Source of the DNA: Rhyzopertha dominica
Lineage: Eukaryota > Arthropoda > Insecta > Coleoptera > Bostrichidae
Direction of reading: 5' to 3'
Assembly: GCA_025024175.1 (NCBI GenBank)
Contig: QCXZ01000137.1
Location: 76,818,680 to 76,882,679, forward strand
DNA length: 64,000 bases
The notes below the pieces were generated by a model. That model searched no databases, was not told where the DNA came from, and saw only the letters and a list, made by a program, of their open reading frames with translations. The translations under genes were made by a program, and so were the position numbers. Shown here in pieces: positions 1 to 58,684 of the stretch; within the stretch, counting starts at the first letter, position 1; each line of letters begins with the position of its first letter.

Positions 1-385
1 ACAGCACAGCATAGACATGCATTTTAATGTATGTCGGTTTTTGCCCGCTAGCAAAAAGTGCCATGGGGGCCTGCTGTCAAATTGAAGTATGCAGTGGCAT
101 GCCAATTTGTCAGGCTACAGGTCACTTCCTTTAGGAAGTAGTACCCGTTAAGGCAGCTAGGTGGCTTTGTCGTCATGTCAGTGTAATGCTGACAGATGGC
201 ATTGCCATCCTAAATTCTTACTTACATCATACCATTGCTTTGGTATATAAGCAAAACCAGTTCTATGCCGTGCTGTCTACACTAGACCTAAACTGCACTG
301 ATGAGCTGTAATGNCAGCGAATTAGATCTATCTGCAGTTGGTTGAGGTGTAGACAGCACAGCATAGATATGCATTTTAAAGTATA
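1..385 (+). mobile_element. Retrozyme-like hammerhead repeat, copy A
   Basis: One full unit plus the tail of a preceding unit cut by the window edge. Bases 1-29 match 353-381, giving a tandem period of 352 bp. The same sequence occurs inverted at 33604-33909. Copy A differs from that copy by about 21 extra bases near 240-260 (containing a TATATAA-like string) and about 25 extra bases at the unit junction (about 28-54); together these explain the 352 versus 306 bp lengths. The unit contains a type I hammerhead ribozyme motif at 270-359. No ORF is present. Small non-coding repeats with a type I hammerhead and tandem arrangement match what is known of animal retrozymes and hammerhead satellites; the assignment to that class is inference. 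Confidence 0.75.
270..359 (+). ncRNA. Type I hammerhead ribozyme motif (copy A, damaged core)
   Basis: Outer helix I: GTGCTGTCTACAC (270-282) pairs with GTGTAGACAGCAC (347-359). Inner helix I: AACTGCA (291-297) pairs with TGCAGTT (333-339). Core CTGATGA is at 298-304. Stem II is GCTGT/NCAGC with an AATG loop (305-318). Then comes GAAT (319-322), a self-complementary TAGATCTA stem III, and TC ending at 332, the predicted cleavage site. The fourth base of the usual GAAA is T (position 15.1), which removes the A15.1-U16.1 pair, and one stem II base is N. Cleavage by this copy is therefore doubtful. Confidence 0.75.
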
Positions 386-3795: not shown

Positions 3796-6789
3796 TCTAA
3801 ACTAAGATTTACTATACTTTTCATCAAGTATCGAGGAGTAACGACACTTTTAAAACAAAGAGCATCTTTTGATACCAGTATTTATAGTTTCGTTCGATGC
3901 TAGCGACCTGCCACGGCGCTTAAAAGCATTAGTCGATAAAACATAAATTACCTATTAGTTTCAGCGCAGTGCAGGCTTGATAAGAAATAAAGAAACAAAT
4001 CATTCCGTGAAGCAAATGCCATAAATATGGTAATGCCGGTCGATTGCTTTCCCGTTCAACAGCATAACCACAGATCTGCCAAAGTAATCCCGCTTAAACA
4101 TTATAATTTCCAACTTTTCAACAAGTCATAAATACCCATCTATCAATAAGTACTACAGCAGAAATTACGGTGGTGGAATTGGTTTCCCGCCTCAGGAGCG
4201 GATGCAGTCGAGCGCTGATGAGAAACAAGGCAAACTAGCGTTCTGCGGGTTCCCGTTACTACGCATTCTTTCAATGACGGCCTGATTCATTGCACTTGCA
4301 ATATTTGCATGCATCAGTGGCCACAGCTACCGATCCGGTACTGTCGGCAAGTGCACTAAAAATCGCTCGTGAAATGTTGCTGAAGTGGGCATGGTGCTTG
4401 TAAAATATTTGCAGTGTTGCGTTCGCATCTGGATACAGAGGTCTTGTTCTGCAAACACTGGTTGCAGCGCACGCGGTTTTTAAACAGACTTTATTTTGGT
4501 ACATAACAGATCAAACTATGCAAATTTTTTGTAGTAATATCGCAGACATTTGGTCACCGACGCACAATTTTATGGAACGAAGAAAAGAACGTGTATAAAC
4601 AATATAAAACATACAGTTGCTAATTTCTTTGGATTTCTGTTGAAATCATCACCAAGGCCGGGGTGGCATCTAATACTGGGCCCCCTACCCTGTGTACAAC
4701 ATAAATGGTTTCCCCATTTTGAAAATCAATAAAAAACAGATGGTATCTATTATCAAGGTCCTCATGGTATCTCAATTGAAAACGATTCTCGTGTACCCAC
4801 CTGGGGTTTAAGGAGGTCTTCCCACAAGGGAGCCTTTACCCGGAAAGCTGCTGCTACTAGTCGCGAATTCACACGATTATTGAACATTATGGAAAAATTT
4901 AAGACTACCTGACTTTAAATGCCATCGTGTGCAGTATTCAATATTGTTACTTGCAAAAAATTAACGAAAAGAAAACAGCTGAAAGGGCGTTTGCTAAAAA
5001 AACTCTGATAAAAATGAAATTATTAGCTCAATCATTGAGAAAATTAACAAGGTTGTAACGGACCGGGTGAGTATTAAATACACACGTTACATAAATAAGA
5101 ATATAATAACAAAAACGTAACAGGTAACACATGCAGCGACATAACAAATCGATATCAACAATAAATACTGGTAAGTATAATTCAAGGTAATATAAATTTG
5201 AAAGAATATGTATAAATAATAAAATCTAAATGCTGTATAAATAATTTCTGTTTCAATTTAATGTAATAATATGTGACATTGGACTATTAAATGATAATTA
5301 AATATATATGCAAACAGTGGTGGTTTTACTAAATCGTTTGTTTATGAAAATGCAAACTCAATTAAAGAACAGATAGGTAAATATAATATAGAACATTCAA
5401 TAAACACAATATACCGCTATATACGTAAGTTACTTGATCAAGTACCCCCGTTTAACATTTAATCTATCTCGAGATATAACACAAATAAAACATTTAAATA
5501 TTGCAATATGAACGAACGACACCTCCAGCGCTACTTATCTTGTTCTTTATACTCGTTTTTGTCAGCAAGCTATCGCATCAATGGCAGTTGTTCTCTCTCG
5601 CACCCTCGGGAAGTACGGAACCTCGATTCTGGTTGTTCATGAATCGTTATTAATAACTGCATCAATTGTTGACAATTTCCCTTGTAATGAGCTTTCCCAT
5701 AGACGTTTACGTGTGGTTGTATGTTTAGTCCCTTAATGATTGACTAGTAGTAGATATAGGTATAGATCTAGATTTAGAGCCTAAAACGAAGTACTAAATT
5801 GTGAGGACAAAAGCACTTCTTAACTCACCCCTCACTGCACTGCATACATACAATGTGTTTTAAATCACAAGGAGCTCTAATAAGCACAACCTAGCGAGCC
5901 AATGTGCTGCGCCGGAAGAAGTAATTCGGTCAAAAAACATTTATCTATACCTTCAATGACACTAACCCTATCGACAAATCACGCATGCACCGCTGCAAGG
6001 TTCTATTCTGATAGCTACGAAACGATTAAAAGTCATCGAAATCGGTCAAGAATGGTCATCNATGGCGTATAATTACTTATATTTATAGAGATACAGAGAT
6101 GACTCGTTTTTTCAAAGGCAATTTTAGATCATATTTAACATTAAATATCACTTTATTGGTAAATTGGTATATAAAAAAGCTTAATTTTTCTCTTCTTTCA
6201 GAACTATACTTTGTACTACTAGTCTAGTAGTCACAAGTATAGTTTTCCCATTGGAATAATATTATATGGAGGGTCTTTTTGTGTAGAAGTAATCGTAAAT
6301 TTGTACAGGAAACAATCGCTATCACAACGAGTTTACTGCAGACACGTGTCGCTACCATAAATTTGCATAATTAGGGTCATCTACATACCTTCCAGTCCCG
6401 TATTGGAAATTATCATCATGTTTAGAAAACAAGATGACCACCATTTAGACCAGCTTTAGATATGAATTTGAATAATATTCGTTGCACAGGTTTGTTTTCT
6501 TATGTGTATAAGTACTTGTTTATTAGGGTTTAAGCAGAATTGGTAATAAAGTGCTTAACTTATACAAGAGGGCTGAATACGGTACTGAAGCAATGTCTCT
6601 CTGGGGTGCCTGCGACTAATTTAGGACTTGTTTGTCGGTATTTTCTACAGGGCACTGAAGTGGTAAGTAATCCTCCATTATTGCAGTTAAAATATTTTAC
6701 TATGACAATATAACCTTAGAAGAATGGGAAAATTATAACAATGTAGAAGAATGCAGAAGGTATATATTCGGAGAAACCCTGTCACTGAT
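3796..6789. other. No gene recognised; AT-rich with one GC-richer patch
   Basis: No convincing coding region, RNA gene or element end. A GC-richer, low-repeat patch lies at about 4180-4500 and another at about 4640-4870. The first leaves frames open on the minus strand without a recognisable product, and both could be old non-coding elements or exon remnants. The remainder is AT-rich with frequent stops in all frames. Confidence 0.4.
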
Positions 6790-19740: not shown

Positions 19741-19820
19741 CGTGCAGAAAACGAAGAGAAGTGCACTGATGAGCTCTAACAACAGCAAAACAGATCTGTC
19801 TGTAGCCGGTACTGCGAGAT
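19741..19820 (+). ncRNA. Degenerate hammerhead motif, second type
   Basis: GTGCA, core CTGATGA (19766-19772), stem II GCTCT/ACAGC with an AACA loop, AAAA in place of GAAA (19787-19790), self-complementary CAGATCTG as stem III, T, C (19800), then TGTAGC. The layout is the same as the hammerheads at 270-359 and 33624-33713, but helix sequences differ, G12 is replaced and helix I is only partly paired. It is probably a decayed relic of another hammerhead-bearing repeat. No long match to copies A and B was found in the flanks. Confidence 0.5.
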
Positions 19821-26768: not shown

Positions 26769-28142
26769 CAGGGGGTGCGAACAGGCAAGCCCAAAGTGGC
26801 ACCCACTAGAAAAAAACATAGTTATGCTAAACCTGAGAATAACCAAACGTGAATGTTACAATTTATTGTGTACAAAACTAATTAGTCTATCTATATTAGC
26901 AAGAAAAAACAGTTATGGATGATAAGCAAAATAGCATAATTAAGTGATAATAATATAAGTATAATATACAGAAAAAAGAAGAAAAAAATATATACATATA
27001 GGTCAGTATTCTCGAATACAATAAGTAAACTATAAAGCATTATGCAATATTCAAACTGCATATAAGAAACATTGCTAAGCTAAGAAAAATTTACAAACGA
27101 AACACTATTGTCTGAATTTTAACTAAAGCTCTAAATTTTTTCAAAGAGTTATGGAAAATATCGACGTCAGAACAGTGCGAATTATATGATCTAGTAATGC
27201 GGGCTAAAGGTCCATTACGACCTAAATTGGTTCGGAAGAGATATTCGCGAAATGAAGGTAAAAAACCACTGTTATACACGGGAACACTTAAGAAGATACT
27301 AGAGAGCAAAGAGGGTGAATCAACTGAGCTATTGATTATTTTATGGAGAAAAAGCAAATCCGCTACTAGTCTTCTCTTTTCTAGGCTCATTATGTTGTAC
27401 ATTCCGGTCAGCGTTGTGGCATTTATTAACTCATAGGAACCCACAACTTTAAAATGAAGATACCTTAAAAACTTGTTTTGTACCGACTACAGTCTTAATT
27501 TGTATATGTCATACTGTGGAGACCACACAACGGATGCAAAATTGAGTCTGCTATATACAAATGCGAAGTACAGGTTTTTTATAACTTCAATAGAACTAAA
27601 GTTTTTAGTTGTTCGAATTATAAAGCCCAACATTCTATTTGCCTGATAAGCTATATTATCTATATGCACACAGAAGGTCATTTTCTGGTCGAAAGTGACT
27701 CCCAAATCTTTCACATGAGAAACGGCCTTTATCTTATTGTTGTCAAAGTTATAGTCAAAGGAAAATGGTCTAATGTTTCTAGAAAATGTAATAGTACAGC
27801 ACTTACTGAAATTTAAATAAAGTTTGTTAATTTTACAGTAATTATAGAATTGACATAGGTCGTTTTGAAATAGTATACAGTCGGAGATATTACTTATGGG
27901 AGCGAAGATTTTTAGGTCATCAGCATAAAGAAGAAAATTGCAGAATTCAAAACAATGTTTAATATCATTAATATAAATTAAGAACAGCAGGGGCCCTAAA
28001 ACCGAACCTTGTGGTACACCTGAAGTGACCCAGTAAGGTGATGATTTAAAACCATTTATCGATATTACTTGAGTTCTGCCGCTGACATATGATGATAACC
28101 ATCTTAACAAAGTTCCGTGCACACCTATTTTTGACAGTTTGT
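26769..28142 (-). mobile_element. 5'-truncated LINE (Jockey/CR1-like), LINE 1
   Basis: Minus-strand non-LTR retrotransposon 3' half. It has a reverse-transcriptase ORF at 28141-27091 and a 3' untranslated region at 27090-26769, and ends in a TAAA tail. The 5' break at about 28142 abuts a short tandem repeat. Confidence 0.85.
27091..28141 (-). pseudogene. LINE reverse transcriptase, C-terminal half with one nonsense codon
   Basis: Read from the 5'-truncation point, this single frame holds about the last 350 codons of a LINE ORF2. It contains the palm motifs (GVPQGSVLGPLLFLIYIND, then catalytic LLYADD) and the following KDLGVTFD thumb-side motif. The C-terminal part runs to a natural stop at 27091. 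The only break is an in-frame TAG at 27487-27489, one base from a Glu or Gln codon, followed in the same frame by SVQNKFLRYL. The endonuclease and first RT motifs are missing through 5' truncation, so the protein could not act. The good preservation suggests a fairly young copy. Confidence 0.85.
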
Positions 28143-28171
28143 AAATTAAATTAAATTAAATTAAATTAAAA
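28143..28171. repeat. (AATTA)n microsatellite
   Basis: About five copies of a 5-base AATTA-type unit directly at the 5' truncation point of LINE 1, either a pre-existing target or a product of insertion. Confidence 0.8.
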
Positions 28172-32230: not shown

Positions 32231-33398
32231 TATAATAATAATAATAATAATTTATTGAGTAACAAAACAAGTTACGCAATAGGAAGGAGTTAGCACAATG
32301 CTATCTACCACTCCTCCCCAAATCAAAATACATATATAAGCACCAGAGTAAAGAAAACAATATAGCTACTGCGAAACATATAACAGCAGTTAATACATAA
32401 TTAATATTAATTCCATATCAAAGAAAACCAATAGGATAGTGTACAAAATATATAACAACTATTCATTAATAATCTACAAGTAGAAGAGATCTGACTGCAG
32501 ACTTAAATTGAGATAAACTTAAAATTAAATATTCTAAAAATTTGTTAAGTAATACAGGTGCACAGTAACAAAAGCAACCTCTGAACCTGTTGGTATGGTG
32601 TGGTGGTACTGTAAAGCTGTCCGTTCTGATATTCACCGAATGAACATCAGATCTCCTCCTCAATAAAACAAACAAATAAGCAGGGACACCGGTACGCAGA
32701 AGTTTGTACAAAAATACAGCATACAAATAATACATTCGGTTATACACCTTCATTTCACAAATATTTTTGATGTAAGGAGTGACATGATTTCGGTATGGTA
32801 TATTGCAAACAAAACTTTTGCAACCGTTTTGTATGCGTTGCAATCTTAATTTATTGTATTGAGGCAAAAAAATCAGAGTAAATAAAACCACAGTAAAAGA
32901 TATGAGGGTATATAAGGGATTCGACTAACTTGAATTTTACATCTGAAGAGAAAAATTTCTTAAAACTATACAGTGACTTTAACTTCCACATAGTAACTCG
33001 GCAAACGTGCTGGATTTGGTCATCAAATGACAACTTATTATCAATGACAATACCAAGATTCTTTACGGATGTAACCCACTCAATACTCTCACTTTTTATG
33101 CATAAAGAAAGATTTAGTTGATTAGGCTGATTACTGTGCCTTCTGGGAGGGCCAATACACAATGCTTTAGTTTTGCCATGATTAAGTCTTAAGCCATGTT
33201 TCTCACAAAAATTTTCAATACTATCATGTTCAATATTCATCAGATCTATAGCCTGTTTAAAATCCTTTAACTGAAACGGATAATACACCTGGATGTCATC
33301 TGCATATAGGCGAACATCAGCACAATGCAGCATTTTATGAATATCAAATATGTAAACAGAAAAAAATACAGGACCCAGAATGCTGCCAAATTTTACCA
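32231..33398 (-). mobile_element. LINE 3, 5'-truncated, nested in the TIR element
   Basis: Minus-strand LINE fragment ending in a (TTA)n-type tail (32231-32251 on + reads AATAAT). It has a 3' untranslated region at 32252-32465 and coding remains at 32466-33398. It sits inside the TIR element at 31843-33435. Confidence 0.8.
32466..33398 (-). pseudogene. LINE 3 reverse transcriptase, one frameshift
   Basis: Frame 33398-32851 holds the RT motif SILGPVFFSVYIFDI, catalytic LYADDIQVYYPF, HGKTKALCIG and VKNLGIVIDNKLSF. It shifts near 32860 into frame 32891-32466, which carries NKLRLQRIQNGCKSF, the C-terminal SDVHSVNIRTD and the natural stop. The catalytic YADD is intact, but the domain start is lost by truncation and the frameshift would prevent a full product. 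It resembles Jockey/CR1-type LINEs and is close to LINE 2. Confidence 0.85.
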
Positions 33399-33603
33399 AG
33401 ATACCGCCGCTGTCCAGCCTTAACTGATTACCCTGTATAAATGAAACATAATTGCCAAAACGAACAATACAATACCAATAAATCTGACCAGATGATGAAA
33501 TTAGTAAGAGGTTAGATCCTACAGAACAGGATAGTGAATTTAATGAATATGTATTTCCGAAGAAGGCAAATACCTAATTATAAAAATAAATAAGTATCAT
33601 ATG

Positions 33604-33909
33604 TTAAAATGCATGTCTATGCTGTGCTGTCTACACCTCAACCAACTGCAGATAGTACTATTTCGCTGTCATTACAGCTCATCAGTGCAGTTTAGGTCTA
33701 GTGTAGACAACACGGCATAGAAAGCAATGGTATGATGAAAGTAAGAATTTAGGATGGCAATGCCATCTGTCAGCATTACACTGACATGATGACAAAGCCA
33801 CCTAGCTGCCTTAACGGGTACTACTTCCTAAAGGAAGTGACCTGTAGCCTGACAAATTGGCATGCAACTGCATACTTCAATTTGACAGCAGGCCCCCACG
33901 GCACTTTTT
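33604..33909 (-). mobile_element. Retrozyme-like hammerhead repeat, copy B, with 12-bp TSD
   Basis: A 306-bp inverted copy of the repeat at 1-385. It is flanked by a perfect 12-bp direct repeat AAGTATCATATG (33592-33603 and 33910-33921), a clear target-site duplication. On the minus strand it starts AAAAAGTGCC and ends GCATTTTAA. It has no ORF. It carries a hammerhead with a fully conserved core (33624-33713). A duplication of this length suggests insertion through target-primed reverse transcription; small hammerhead retrotransposons (retrozymes) fit. It lacks the 21-base and 25-base segments present in copy A. Confidence 0.85.
33624..33713 (-). ncRNA. Type I hammerhead ribozyme, intact core
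   Basis: On the minus strand: outer helix I GTGTTGTCTACAC with GTGTAGACAGCAC; inner helix I AACTGCA (33692-33686) with TGCAGTT (33650-33644); core CTGATGA (33685-33679); stem II GCTGT-AATG-ACAGC (33678-33665); GAAA (33664-33661); short self-complementary stem III TAGTACTA, then T and C. Predicted cleavage is 3' of the C at 33651. Every invariant hammerhead base is present, including A15.1-U16.1. The tiny palindromic stem III suggests the motif may work best as a dimer, as proposed for other animal satellite hammerheads. Confidence 0.88.
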
Positions 33910-33921
33910 AAGTATCATATG

Positions 33922-35210
33922 TCCTAAAGAAAGAAACCGACAGGAGAATCCATCCTGTTATAGCGGAAGAAGTGTAAGTCAAGTCAAAATTCTATATAAT
34001 AATAAAAAACTTCAAACATAATTTCTTTGGGGTGTTGTAATACCTCGGAGCTTGCCTTATAATAATAGCCTAGATATACAGGCAGCATAAAGTACACGTA
34101 AACGTAATATGACGATTCTTGGAATTTAATTTAGCGCCATACCCTGCAGCTTGCTCTGTAGCAAGCCTTCTCATAAACTGATGATGGTATTGACCTTACC
34201 TGCACGTACAATTTCAATAATGCGGAAGAATGGATTCTTAAATAACTCTGTCGTTCATTACACGACAATAGTGGAACCGAAATGTACATTTATGAGACAC
34301 AAAAAAATTATAACGGGGAAGTGAAACTCGAAACATGAAAAGGGCGTGATATATGCTGTTATGAACGTATGCCATTTAATGCACTCGATAAGAACCGTAC
34401 ATAATGGCAACAAGAGATTGAGGAACAAAGGTGTTATTGTACGTGTCTTTGCGGAGTTGAATTATTGGATACGCGACCTGCAAATGCATTTTGCTGCAGT
34501 AACTTATATAATATATTTAAGAGCTTCAAACAAGCGTTTGTCTTTCACTGTACCATGAATATAAAATTTGTGAAGGCTGTAATAACACATAAACTACTGG
34601 AGCACAAGATTCCACAGTTGTGACATCACAACTGGATGTTTGTTGTAAAGGACACCATGTATTGCAGTCTTGTTAAGTGATCGAGGTCAGTGTCAGTAAC
34701 ACGTTATTTCGAAAACGATTTCGTGAGATTACAAGCGAGTTACACATTCAAATGCTATTATAAATGAGTTTATTAGTGTCTCGCGATGATCCTTGAATGA
34801 AATCATGATGTTAATGGGCATTTAATTCGTGTCTTGGTACAATGCAAGAACTGTAGGTAATAAAACGCTGAATTAAACTTACATTCATGTACAGATAGCT
34901 TTAATATTTAATAGTGTATTACCTTCAAGGCGGTAAATATCACTCTAGAGCTATGTCAACCCATGATAATTAAATATGTCACGTAATTGAAACATAAACG
35001 AAACGTAATTAATTTATCAGTATGCAGAAATAAAGGCCAGTCAAATTTCTACAGTATTTATGGGGCATATATATCTAAGAATAAAGATGCAAAATGGCGT
35101 TTGGTTTAGATGTTTGTTATGTATGAGAAATAAGTAGAGGAAAAATTAGGTAAACTACCTAACAGGAAGCCTTATACAGTTAAAAAAAAACGCTGCAAAT
35201 TGAATCAATA
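33922..35210. other. No gene recognised
   Basis: AT-rich DNA without a supportable ORF or repeat boundary. A slightly GC-richer stretch lies at about 34130-34520. Confidence 0.4.
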
Positions 35211-49336: not shown

Positions 49337-50530
49337 CTACAACTGTAGGAACTTTAACATGTTTTTTTTTCTATTTATAAGTTCTATTTTGTGTTCTTTT
49401 AGTATATTGATCAAATGTCTACAAGTCTGCCCAACATGAACAGACTGATAATCATTGCATTTCGTATATATGTTTGTAAGATCTCTTATTTTAGTTTTTG
49501 ATTTTAATTTTGAAAATAAATCCACAACTCCAATGAGAGGGTAATAACTTCCTCGAACTTTGCTAAACTTTACTAGTTGATTTATTAATAAGACCTTCAA
49601 TATAAGGAAAGGTAAAAATTTGAAAAATTTAGTCTGAGAAACCACTTCGTTAGTCACTCCAACAGCAGCATGCATTCAAGAAAGCTACAAAGTTATTGAC
49701 ATTAGATATTTTGTATAACAATTAGGTATGAATTATTTATTAGAATTGATTTTAATTTTCGCAGGTTTTTGTTTAATAGTGAGGTATGTGGAATTTTTGT
49801 AATTCGGTTCTTTAAAGCCAAAATTAAATAACTTTTTGTTTTGAAGTTATGATATAAATAAAAATCTGCCTGAGGATGTTGGTTTAATGTACCAGTAACA
49901 ATGTATCTAAAAAGGGTGAAGTGTTGTCAGTTTCTTTTCTACAGTAAACTGTACGTGATGATTATATTAATTGAAAGCTGTTAGTAATTCTTTATGTTTG
50001 TCGGCAGGTAATGTTAGAACTAAGTCATCCAAGTACTCCACTAGAAGAGGAACTTCAAATTTTAATTTATCTAAACAGGCTGATACGACTTCAAGCCTTA
50101 CATACTATGCTGTTATTGGGGACTCTTTACTATACATTTGAGTACCAAAAATTTGTTTATAAAAGATAGTGTTAAAAGCGGAAACTATATTATTGGATGT
50201 AAAATTTATGATTTCTAAAAACATATCAAGTGTAAAATTACAATTATCCTTTACAATATTTCATTTTTTTGTTATTACTTCATTTGCAGAGATCTAAAGG
50301 AACATTTGTAAAAAACAGAAATGACATGGAAGCTAACTAAACGATACCCATCAAAGTTAATATTTCTAACACTAAAATTGACAATTCTCGTGCTGGTGCA
50401 TCTTTAAAAGATCTGATAGGTAGAAAAGGTAAGTTAAGTTTATGTATTTTTGAAGGAGCATAATATTTTGGTATTACACTATTATATAACTCTTTTTACT
50501 AGCCGTTAAAGATATCATATTGTTGTCTCT
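49337..50530 (-). pseudogene. PLE reverse transcriptase plus GIY-YIG endonuclease relic
   Basis: On the minus strand, RT comes first. Near 50190-49980 it reads FNTIFYKQIFGTQM then SPITA, the PLE-type region (F.Q..GT.MGSPLSP in the family, degraded here), then LLVEYLDDLVLTLP with catalytic DD, and KHKELLTAFN. The C-terminal frame 49675-49337 ends with LTNIYTKCNDYQSVHVGQTC then RHLINILKEHK. That is the GIY-YIG endonuclease region (IY...C......YVGQT.R.L..R..EHK in the family), with the second motif YVG read as HVG and the catalytic Arg not clearly kept. Stops and frameshifts lie between. The RT-then-GIY-YIG order is diagnostic of PLEs. Confidence 0.8.
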
Positions 50531-55970: not shown

Positions 55971-57411
55971 TCCAGTAGAGATTGTTAGGTATGAATTAAT
56001 TTTGTGGACGACTATATGGTTTATTTGTGGTATTTTATGAATATTTCATTTTGTACTGCCCTTGATGGTATACAACCAGTCGTCTTTCTCGTTACTTTGC
56101 TTCCAGTATGAATCAGGTGAGAGTTATATCAACCTTTTTTCTTTATTTGCGGATCCTTGGATCCAGTATGTTTCCTGCTGCTGGTGCGAGCAAATATCAC
56201 AATATTTTGCGGAATCGCCCAGAAATATTGCCTTAACGTTCTCCTTTGGCGATTTTGGACTAATTGAACTGATTTGTTAGCCACTTTCGTCCGTTGCTTG
56301 ATTTTCGGAGAATTCGACGTTTTATGGCAAATTTCGAGTATACTTGTCTTTTTTGTAACTCACTGCTGGTTGAATTCTTCATTTGGGTAAGTGCATATGG
56401 TGAAGGAAAATTACGATTTCGTTTTCATTGTGTTTCTTTTTTTGTCGTAGGTCATACCGTTAGCTGGATTGGTAGCTAATATAATTTTTGCTACTCTCAA
56501 ATTTTAAATTTAACTGAAGGCCATTACCACCTGGTAAGAAAATGATTAATAAAATATAAATTTTGTTGGTCAGTATGTAAATTTTTAGGCCTTTTTTCCC
56601 TTGGGTTTGTGAACTGGGTTGGTTCCCATTATTTTACAATAGGATTCATTCTATTGGTGTTTTACAACTCGAAGTTTACGTCTTGTGGAGATTTGGATCA
56701 CCTCATGAAGCCCCGCCTTATCGGTCATCACCCTCGTCATTGGGAGTCACCACAATTCAATATACACTCCATTTGCTGCTGGTGTCCTAAACGATGGTTC
56801 TTTAGGAATTTTCTCCATTATCTGGCAAGTCCGTGCATGTTTTTGTGGGTGTCTAATTAAGAGAAAGAACAATAAAGCTGGTAATACAAGATATGTTACC
56901 TTAAGAAAATTTAACTTTGATGTTATTGCAAAGAAAGAAACTATTTCTAATTACAGTAACTAAAGAGAAAAGGAGAAACAAGAATTGCCTGCTCTCTTTA
57001 CCATTTTTAACTTGTTAAGACCAAATAAAAGCTGAACATTATTAAGCTTAATTGTAAACCGAGTATAATTATACAAGAGCACCACCATCGCGTCTCACAC
57101 GGTTGTGTATGGTTTGTTTTGCCACACAAATGTATTTTGTATTTCTCTATTTGTAGATTGGTTGTTAGCACTCAATATTTACTATAAACATACAGCTATA
57201 GTTGTATTACCGCTATTAACTATTCATGCACGAATATTTGTGTCGTACGTATGTTATTATAGATCAGGGTTGGTTAAATAAATGAAGATTTTAGTTGGCG
57301 AAAATTATACTCGTCTCTTACGTGAATTTTCTTAAGTAGTTTCTTAATTGTGAAATCCGACGAAAGCGTCACTCTAAGCTCATACAAAACGGGTGGCGCT
57401 CTCTTTAACTA
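55971..57411. other. No gene recognised
   Basis: Short open frames at 56062-56280, 56294-56479 and 56609-56860 are on the same strand and rich in Phe, Cys and Trp, with a loosely repeated SxCCWC phrase in the first and third. I do not recognise a family and they may be chance. Confidence 0.3.
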
Positions 57412-58684
57412 TGAGGCATGTTTTTTAAGTAAGTACCGTTTTGTGATTCCACCGCCGCAGCCCTACGGTCGGCGTTCCGCGCATGCGCGCTGGTTACCTA
57501 CATCTCTTCTATACGCACTGACGCCATTACAGTTTGATTCTTCATTGTATACGTTGTTTACTGAGTGTCCCGCCGATTGTGAAGTACGGGCTGTTATACG
57601 ATTAATTAGTGCTAAAGGCGAAAAACCGATCGATATTCATCGTGAGATCTGTGAAGTTTACGGACAAAACATTATGAGTGATGGAATGGTAAGGAAATGG
57701 GTGAGAGCATTTAAAGATGGCCGCACAAATGTGCATGATGAAGAACGGAGTGGGCGTCCTTCGGTCGTTAATGAAGATTTGGTGCAGAAAGCGAACGAAA
57801 AGGTGAGAGAAAACAGACGCTTTACAATTTCATCATTGTGCGACTGCTTTCCTCAATATTCTCCTAGTGTTTTGTATCGCATTGTGATCGAGAACTTGAA
57901 TTACCGGAAATTGTGTTCACGTTGGGTTCCGAAAATGTTGAGGGATTTGCACAAAACCCAACGTTTAGGCAGTGCATTGACTTTCATTGAGCGGTACCAC
58001 AACGAAGGTGAAGATTTTTTAGACCAAATTGTTACTGGTGACGAAACATGGGTGGCCTACGTCACACCAGAATCGAAACAACAATCCATGGAATGGCGAC
58101 ATTCATCATCACCCAAAAAAGTGAAGTTTAAGCAAACAATTTCTGCCTGGAAAATCATGTGCACAGTTTTTTTGGGACAGAAAAGGAGTATTGCTAGTGG
58201 AGTTTCTGCCTCGTAATGAGACAATCAATGTAGTGTCTTATTGTAAGACATTGAACAATCTGCGTCGTGCAGTCCAGAACAAAAGACGTGGCAAGTTGAA
58301 TAAGGGTATCGTTTTGCTGCATGACAATGCCCGTCCACATGTGGCTAATCGGATCAAAGATCTCATCAAATCTTTTAAATGGGAAACTCTAGATCATCCT
58401 CCATACAGCCCTTATCTGGCGCCCAGCGACTATCATTTGTTCCTGCACTTGAAGAAACACCTGGGTGGCCAGCGTCTTCAAGACGATAACGAAGTCGAAA
58501 CATTTGTGATACAGTGTTTAAACAAGTCAGGCGGCAGAATTTTATGAGGAGTGCCTCAATATTCACGGAAATTATGTAGAAAAGTAGATTAAGGTACAGG
58601 CTTTCATGTAAGATAAAATTATTGCGATATCTTTGCACGTCTTTTTTTAATTCCAAAACGGTACTTACTTAAAAAACATGCCTC
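57412..58684 (+). mobile_element. Mariner element, nearly complete
   Basis: Bounded by inverted repeats of about 31 bp (GAGGCATGTTTTTTAAGTAA and onward, left; exact complement ending at 58684, right), differing only at the outermost base. TA lies on each side (57410-57411 and 58685-58686). Length 1,273 bp is typical of mariner. It carries a transposase reading frame from about 57568 to 58587 with two single-base insertions. Well-preserved ends suggest a relatively young copy that could perhaps still be moved by transposase from elsewhere. Confidence 0.93.
57568..58587 (+). pseudogene. Mariner transposase with two +1 frameshifts
   Basis: About 340 residues of a DD34D transposase. The N-terminal helix-turn-helix region is CPADCEVRAVIRLISAKGEK, then MSDGMVRKWVRAFKDGRTN and the linker HDEERSGRPSVV. 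First Asp is in VTGDETW, second in VLLHDNARPH, third in HPPYSPYLAPSDYHLF. The expected initiator Met is not present just before CPADC, where the frame runs upstream through the element end, so the start codon seems lost. A T run of 7 instead of 6 near 58170 shifts the frame. A further extra T near 58530 shifts it again before the C-terminal AEFYEECLNIHGNYVEK and stop at 58585-58587. All three catalytic Asp residues remain. Confidence 0.92.

Follow-up and report, generated by a model that had tools for sequence, protein, structure and literature searches.

By what route does a short repeat that carries a self-cutting RNA motif and encodes no evident protein return to the chromosome? The question is raised by a 306-bp copy within a 64,000-nucleotide stretch of Rhyzopertha dominica DNA, which was analysed as a whole and is called the window here. 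The evidence drawn from this copy and its relatives supports retrozyme insertion by Penelope-type two-strand target priming, with a circular or multimeric RNA of the retrozyme as template. Features of the window copy, which defines what we term family 1, and of a second copy in the same window are collected in Table 1.

Table 1. Positions of retrozyme features in the window
Feature	Position	Strand	Remark
Retrozyme copy	33604..33909	-	unit 73-352 then 1-47, lacking unit 260-280
Left target-site duplication AAGTATCATATG	33592..33603	.	A-end side; from sequence
Right target-site duplication AAGTATCATATG	33910..33921	.	from sequence
Type I hammerhead	33631..33701	-	Rfam Hammerhead_HH9 match; outer stem extends beyond
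Hammerhead C3-A9	33685-33679	-	
Hammerhead stem II	33678-33665	-	
Hammerhead GAAA (G12-A15.1)	33664-33661	-	
Palindromic stem III TAGTACTA	33653..33660	-	
Hammerhead U16.1-C17	33652-33651	-	
Predicted self-cleavage site	33650..33651	-	between 33651 (C17) and 33650
Junction of 21-nt deletion	33722..33723	-	relative to 352-bp unit; from alignment to unit
Site A, putative reverse-transcription start	33604..33608	-	about unit 43-47; from insertion ends
Site B, putative second start	33737..33745	-	about unit 237-245; from insertion ends
Second family-1 copy, cut by window edge	1..378	+	ribozyme reads GAAT for GAAA
Right copy of 14-bp target duplication AAGTATAGTAGTAA	379..392	.	belongs to second insertion (L080)

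The hammerhead ribozyme and its repeat family

A preliminary description of this locus had reported an intact hammerhead on the minus strand, and its core, stem II, palindromic stem III and cut at 33651 could all be located. No match to any Rfam model was found anywhere in the window at the gathering threshold. The best match in a relaxed Rfam search of positions 33400-34100 is Hammerhead_HH9 (E 8.8e-5), so that the covariance-model hit proposed as a check was obtained, but its 28 bits lie below the gathering score of 52. A strict descriptor of the core plus helices finds one site in the window, that of the window copy, and none in 100 mononucleotide shuffles of the window. Likewise, the 111-nt ribozyme region folds with a z score of -7.3, and none of 200 shuffles folds as well.

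Of 68 complete ribozyme segments, 67 retain a loosely defined core pattern, one that misses some core changes (a G at C17 in locus L042 and a C at U16.1 in one unit of L077). Variation affects 11 of 965 calls in the core vs 200 of 7052 elsewhere in the ribozyme region, where the copies compared are related rather than independent. Among 47 distinct sequences, a set that takes in the diverged L062 and L041, eight of 35 helix pairs are changed on both sides, most of the eight resting on one sequence each. Shuffled controls gave a mean of 0.7 such pairs, with none of 500 as high, and structures slid along the sequence gave 0-4. The low variation of the core together with the covariation of helix pairs suggests that the ribozyme has been kept, and thus the family-1 ribozyme appears to be under constraint.

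Several family-1 copies exhibit a paired swap of TA to AT at unit positions 346-347, within the palindromic loop of stem III. The swap leaves the palindrome intact, which would be in keeping with a dimeric hammerhead, and may represent one inherited event. A decayed hammerhead-like stretch is also present elsewhere in the window (19759-19805, plus strand), where it is 79% like the family ribozyme over 47 bases. GAAA is replaced by AAAA in this stretch and its stem III is palindromic; no further retrozyme sequence was matched around it. In addition, L064 carries two old hammerhead-like copies at 5553-5945, some 303 bp apart and 78% alike, which possibly belong to a third retrozyme family.

There are 77 family-1 matches in the genome (479 Mb, 138 contigs) and they are spread across many contigs. 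These come from the best 40 of 851 candidates, the number scored, and they answer the call for further copies made in the preliminary description. Because only 40 of 851 candidates were scored for this family, and 40 of 498 for the second family described below, both samples favour close copies. The matches fall in 39 places (38 loci and the window copy), to which L080 was added from the window edge. One locus, L015, consists of 5.0 tandem head-to-tail copies of a 352-bp unit with 99% matches, and several other insertions extend past one lap of the unit. The repeat unit had previously been taken to be 306 bp, a length that this array corrects to 352 bp.

The window copy is therefore one truncated lap, shorter than the full unit, and it is one-armed. 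As had been described, it is flanked by a 12-bp target duplication that is perfect on both sides, and it lacks an ORF: the longest stop-free run in its 306 bp is 52 codons, and no Penelope-like frame (reverse transcriptase plus GIY-YIG endonuclease) is present. Its GC content is 43.8%, and that of the 352-bp unit is 43.5%. Apart from the 21-nt deletion, it carries the family majority allele at every aligned element position, which, together with the perfect duplication, makes it look young. Losses of at least 10 bases occur in the same region in six other insertions, with limits that differ from those of the window copy. The preliminary assignment to a retrozyme-like non-coding mobile element is borne out by the further copies, the 352-bp array, the target duplications and the two-sided helix-pair changes.

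Other mobile-element traces are found in the window. Two RVT_1 reverse-transcriptase fragments are located at 27487-28155 and 32851-33573 (minus strand), one of them ending 31 bp from the left end of the retrozyme copy. Mariner-type transposase reading frames at 57326-58547 (plus strand) are split across two frames, the second of which was named by eye. An ORF at 49337-49675 (minus strand) resembles GIY-YIG by eye and matches no Pfam family at E 0.001.

Outer ends and arms of family-1 insertions

Most family-1 insertions are not simple copies. Head-to-head composites account for 29 of the 40 mapped insertions (28 of 39 before L080 is added). The locus had been described as a discrete mobile unit; its mobility stands, but most of its relatives are two-armed, and the window holds a second copy at its left edge, where the whole insertion (L080) is head-to-head with one A and one B end. 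These two classes of outer end, defined in the count of 39 as unit 38-63 (A) and unit 235-252 (B), are centred at about 47 and 243. Twenty-five of the 29 composites have one of each (24 of 28 without L080), and the four others pair 311 with A, B with B, 109 with B, and 19 with A. Single insertions end at A in 10 of 11 cases and at B in one (L071); in the window copy, site B is internal and was not used as an end. When both ends fall within the two classes there are 25 A/B insertions, one B/B and no A/A, a distribution with P 4e-7 if the ends were independent and equally likely.

An exact 12-15-base duplication flanks 23 of 28 composites. Flank matches of at least 12 bases are present in 26 of 39 insertions vs 25 of 1482 mismatched flank pairs, the 26 including L074, whose match is element sequence (25 without it). 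Exact microhomology of at least 2 bases is seen at 19 of 26 A ends vs 108 of 650 swapped flanks, and at 11 of 24 B ends vs 55 of 552. These figures are an exact recount that omits L074; a looser count is higher, inflated by alignment past mismatches at L069, L046, L074 and the window copy. At the end of the window copy, only one duplicated base continues the element. Pairing of the cut target's 3' ends with the RNA would account for this pattern near A and, less clearly, near B. No poly-A run is present at the displayed A ends.

Minor alleles agree between the laps or arms of an insertion in 60 of 90 comparisons and disagree in the other 30, where comparisons within an insertion are not independent; permutation gave a mean agreement of 5.4% and a maximum of 13.9%. 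This sharing of rare alleles between arms suggests that both strands are copied from one RNA. Arms with their start at A extend through the position of the ribozyme cut, and thus their template was not a cut linear monomer. A circle and an uncut multimer both remain as candidate templates for these arms. The predicted family-1 circle is stable (MFE -138.5, z -7.0 vs 100 dinucleotide shuffles), and in this model A lies within a hairpin loop and B within a 16-nt open stretch.

A second retrozyme family and Penelope-like elements

The hammerhead of L062 matches Hammerhead_1 at 33.1 bits (gathering score 34) and lies in a repeat with a 346-bp unit, which we term family 2. Among matches with E below 1, this unit resembles family 1 only in or beside the ribozyme. 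There are 48 family-2 matches, from the best 40 of 498 candidates. The 14 loci mapped comprise 12 returned by the search, with L087 and L088 counted once as one place, and three fetched pairs. The A/B layout recurs in nine of the 14 (eight by script and L082 by reading the flank), with A at 49-58 and B at 240-252, which are almost the family-1 positions. L083 and L084 are single insertions with an A end, and three loci do not fit (L086, L087 and L092). Duplications of 9-13 bases accompany eight of the nine A/B loci, the exception being L089, which has none. In the predicted family-2 circle, A is open and B is not, 129 of 346 windows being equally open. A structural basis for the use of A and B is thus only partly supported, because B is predicted to be open in family 1 and not in family 2.

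The same genome contains Penelope-like elements. The one at L059 has a 2780-bp unit with a frame of 864 codons for a reverse transcriptase and a GIY-YIG endonuclease. A GIY-YIG search gave 144 matches from the best 150 of 2080 candidates, not all of the same family as L059. Among the 95 protein relatives listed (7989 candidates scored), the top identity is 48%, the best named relative is from the ladybird Coccinella septempunctata (42%), and the other named ones are mostly from insects, with one from Hydra. Twenty Penelope-like loci were inspected and 13 match the 2780-bp unit, with L054 and L065 representing one place. Eight distinct places have 10-15-bp duplications; seven of these are head-to-head and one is a single insertion ending at 2776. 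In all seven head-to-head places one outer end is at 2774-2780 or 3 and the other at 32-45, and one end is without and the other with a tail of about 36 nt.

According to Frangieh 2024 (PMC11167929), a Penelope-like protein, once purified, can cut both DNA strands, extend them and prime within the RNA at two adjacent positions, and the tail pattern is explained by these two internal start sites together with cutting and extension of both strands. The same start sites serve both strands in that account, the start shows no homology to the DNA that is cut, and mutating the hammerhead had no effect on insertion. Rotifer Penelope-like elements have a similar arrangement (PMC3846280).

No sequence likeness was found between the A and B sites of the retrozyme and the Penelope-like element, and shared start-site homology was accordingly rejected as the cause of the common layout. 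No Rfam hammerhead was detected in the L059 element at E 0.01, and the copies matched to the unit have no CUGANGA box. At nine loci (L047, L051, L055, L056, L059-L062 and L064) a conserved stem followed by GAAACGTC is found at the place expected for a hammerhead, upstream of the element end; these loci likewise have no CUGANGA box. The hammerheads of L062 and L064 were considered as Penelope-like parts and rejected, as they lie outside the mapped element copies there, and that of L062 belongs to the second retrozyme family.

Candidate routes of insertion and comparison with known systems

The ribozyme, the unit, the ends, the duplications, the alleles shared between arms and the same layout in Penelope-like elements are all read directly from sequence. 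The best explanation for them is probably a non-autonomous, protein-free retroelement (an animal non-LTR retrozyme) with a circle-based cycle in which a Penelope-type enzyme would extend both cut target strands. Transcription, cutting, circles and the identity of the enzyme are parts of this cycle that we infer. A genomic copy would be transcribed from the hammerhead strand, tandem transcripts would cut themselves, and a host ligase would circularise the 352-nt monomers. At the target, the two strands would be cut at positions about 12-15 bp apart by a Penelope-type reverse transcriptase/GIY-YIG endonuclease. Of the 3' ends so freed, one would prime on the RNA near site A, about 47 nt past the ribozyme cut, and the other near site B (about 243), priming often being preceded by pairing of a few bases with the RNA. 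Extension of both strands would use one and the same RNA and would often continue beyond a single lap, and the cDNAs would join head to head. Extension of the A strand alone would give a one-armed copy like that in the window. The choice of a Penelope-type helper is suggested by the two-ended layout common to family 1, family 2 and the Penelope-like elements. Counting against this account are the insertions that do not fit it, namely four composites among the 29 of family 1, one of its 11 single insertions and three of the 14 family-2 loci. The disagreeing allele comparisons, the lack of site likeness between retrozyme and Penelope-like element, the differing openness of B in the two predicted circles, the lack of a hammerhead match and of the CUGANGA box in the Penelope-like family and the shared, non-homologous start sites and hammerhead-mutant result of Frangieh 2024 weigh in the same direction.

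A more specific proposal, to which we give an even chance, is that animal retrozyme RNA has two fixed sites for docking, their positions set relative to the ribozyme, A about 50 nt after and B about 105 nt before the cut. Both cut strands would each prime once on one circular RNA through a trans-acting Penelope-type enzyme, and this geometry would be kept between families that share only the ribozyme region. If the proposal is true, each insertion records a two-sided copying event by such an enzyme.

The same priming might instead occur on long, uncut multimeric transcripts of arrays, with hammerhead and circles unnecessary for insertion. The five-unit array L015 makes such transcripts possible, and Penelope-like insertion was unaffected by hammerhead mutants (PMC11167929). 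Position 171 varies among the units of this array, which a monomeric circle without later change would not predict. However, the low variation of the core (in copies that are not independent) and the helix covariation speak for a ribozyme that has been kept, rare alleles are mostly common to laps and arms, and the A-start arms spanning the cut site exclude a cut linear monomer; on balance we regard insertion from uncut multimers as unlikely. LINE machinery of the Jockey or RTE type has also been considered, the two-armed forms then being ordinary twin priming, a LINE process that yields inversions. Two RVT_1 fragments lie in the window, one of them close to the retrozyme copy. This origin is nevertheless quite improbable given the two fixed outer ends, with A joined to B in 25 of the 26 insertions that have no outer end outside these two classes, the lack of poly-A at the displayed A ends and the same layout in Penelope-like elements. 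Perhaps least credible, and in our estimation highly improbable, is a spread like that of satellites, in which DNA recombination or circles of excised DNA would take the place of reverse transcription. Tandem units would be expected of a satellite and hammerhead satellites are known from cave crickets (PMC2837043), but target duplications, fixed ends, head-to-head arms and dispersal over many contigs are at odds with this route.

The favoured reading, a circle-based retrozyme copied by a Penelope-type enzyme, bears on how animal retrozymes return to chromosomes. In the portion of a 2020 review (PMC7761336) drawn on here, animal retrozyme repeats are said to show no conserved motif pointing to a helper element, and Penelope-like elements and Terminons are considered likely helpers from shared hammerheads and co-occurrence. 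The junctions of retrozyme insertions are physical evidence for a Penelope-type helper and point to start sites that an assay with purified enzyme could probe. A further suggestion from them is that a single ribozyme-made RNA may be the template from which both strands of an insertion are copied. In a survey of titles, abstracts and parts of selected papers, no earlier description was found of two fixed ends or of head-to-head retrozyme insertions.

The window element adds a new member to the animal (non-LTR) retrozymes, related to published elements by described features rather than by sequence comparison. Its hammerhead is of type I, with core and helices intact (at an Rfam score below gathering), the element is non-coding with GC below 50%, and its 12-bp duplication exceeds 4 bp. 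The unit falls within about 150-450 bp and is repeated in tandem (352 bp, five times, at L015), the window copy being less than one lap, and its predicted circle is stable and highly self-paired. Published animal retrozymes share the type I hammerhead, tandem units of 170-400 nt, GC below 50%, duplications of more than 4 bp, highly paired predicted circles, variants with indels of about 20 nt, and Penelope-like elements in the same genome (PMC7229834). Circles and cleavage have been shown for those elements (PMC7229834) and are predicted for family 1 from its DNA. Two fixed ends, the pairing of opposite arms and alleles shared between arms are not described in the part of that account by Cervera and de la Pena (2020; PMC7229834) used for comparison.

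Plant LTR retrozymes (PMC4918200) are also non-coding, hammerhead-bearing and circle-based, but their hammerheads are of type III, they carry LTRs and their duplications are 4 bp long, as described in PMC7229834; family 1 differs from them by its type I hammerhead and the 12-bp duplication of the window copy. The pDo500 satellite of cave crickets is likewise an insect repeat family with a hammerhead (PMC2837043) and is likened to family 1 by description only. Penelope-like elements differ in that the retrozyme is non-coding, its sites are about 196 nt apart vs about 30-40 (PMC11167929), and there is no common site sequence. Nevertheless, family 1 as a whole, of which the window copy is a one-armed member, has the two arms, two different fixed ends and 10-15-bp duplications of the Penelope-like mode. 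Head-to-head arms, short target duplications and RNA-internal priming are thus common ground, and the optional tail on one arm and start sites downstream of the hammerhead are further likenesses (PMC11167929, PMC3846280).
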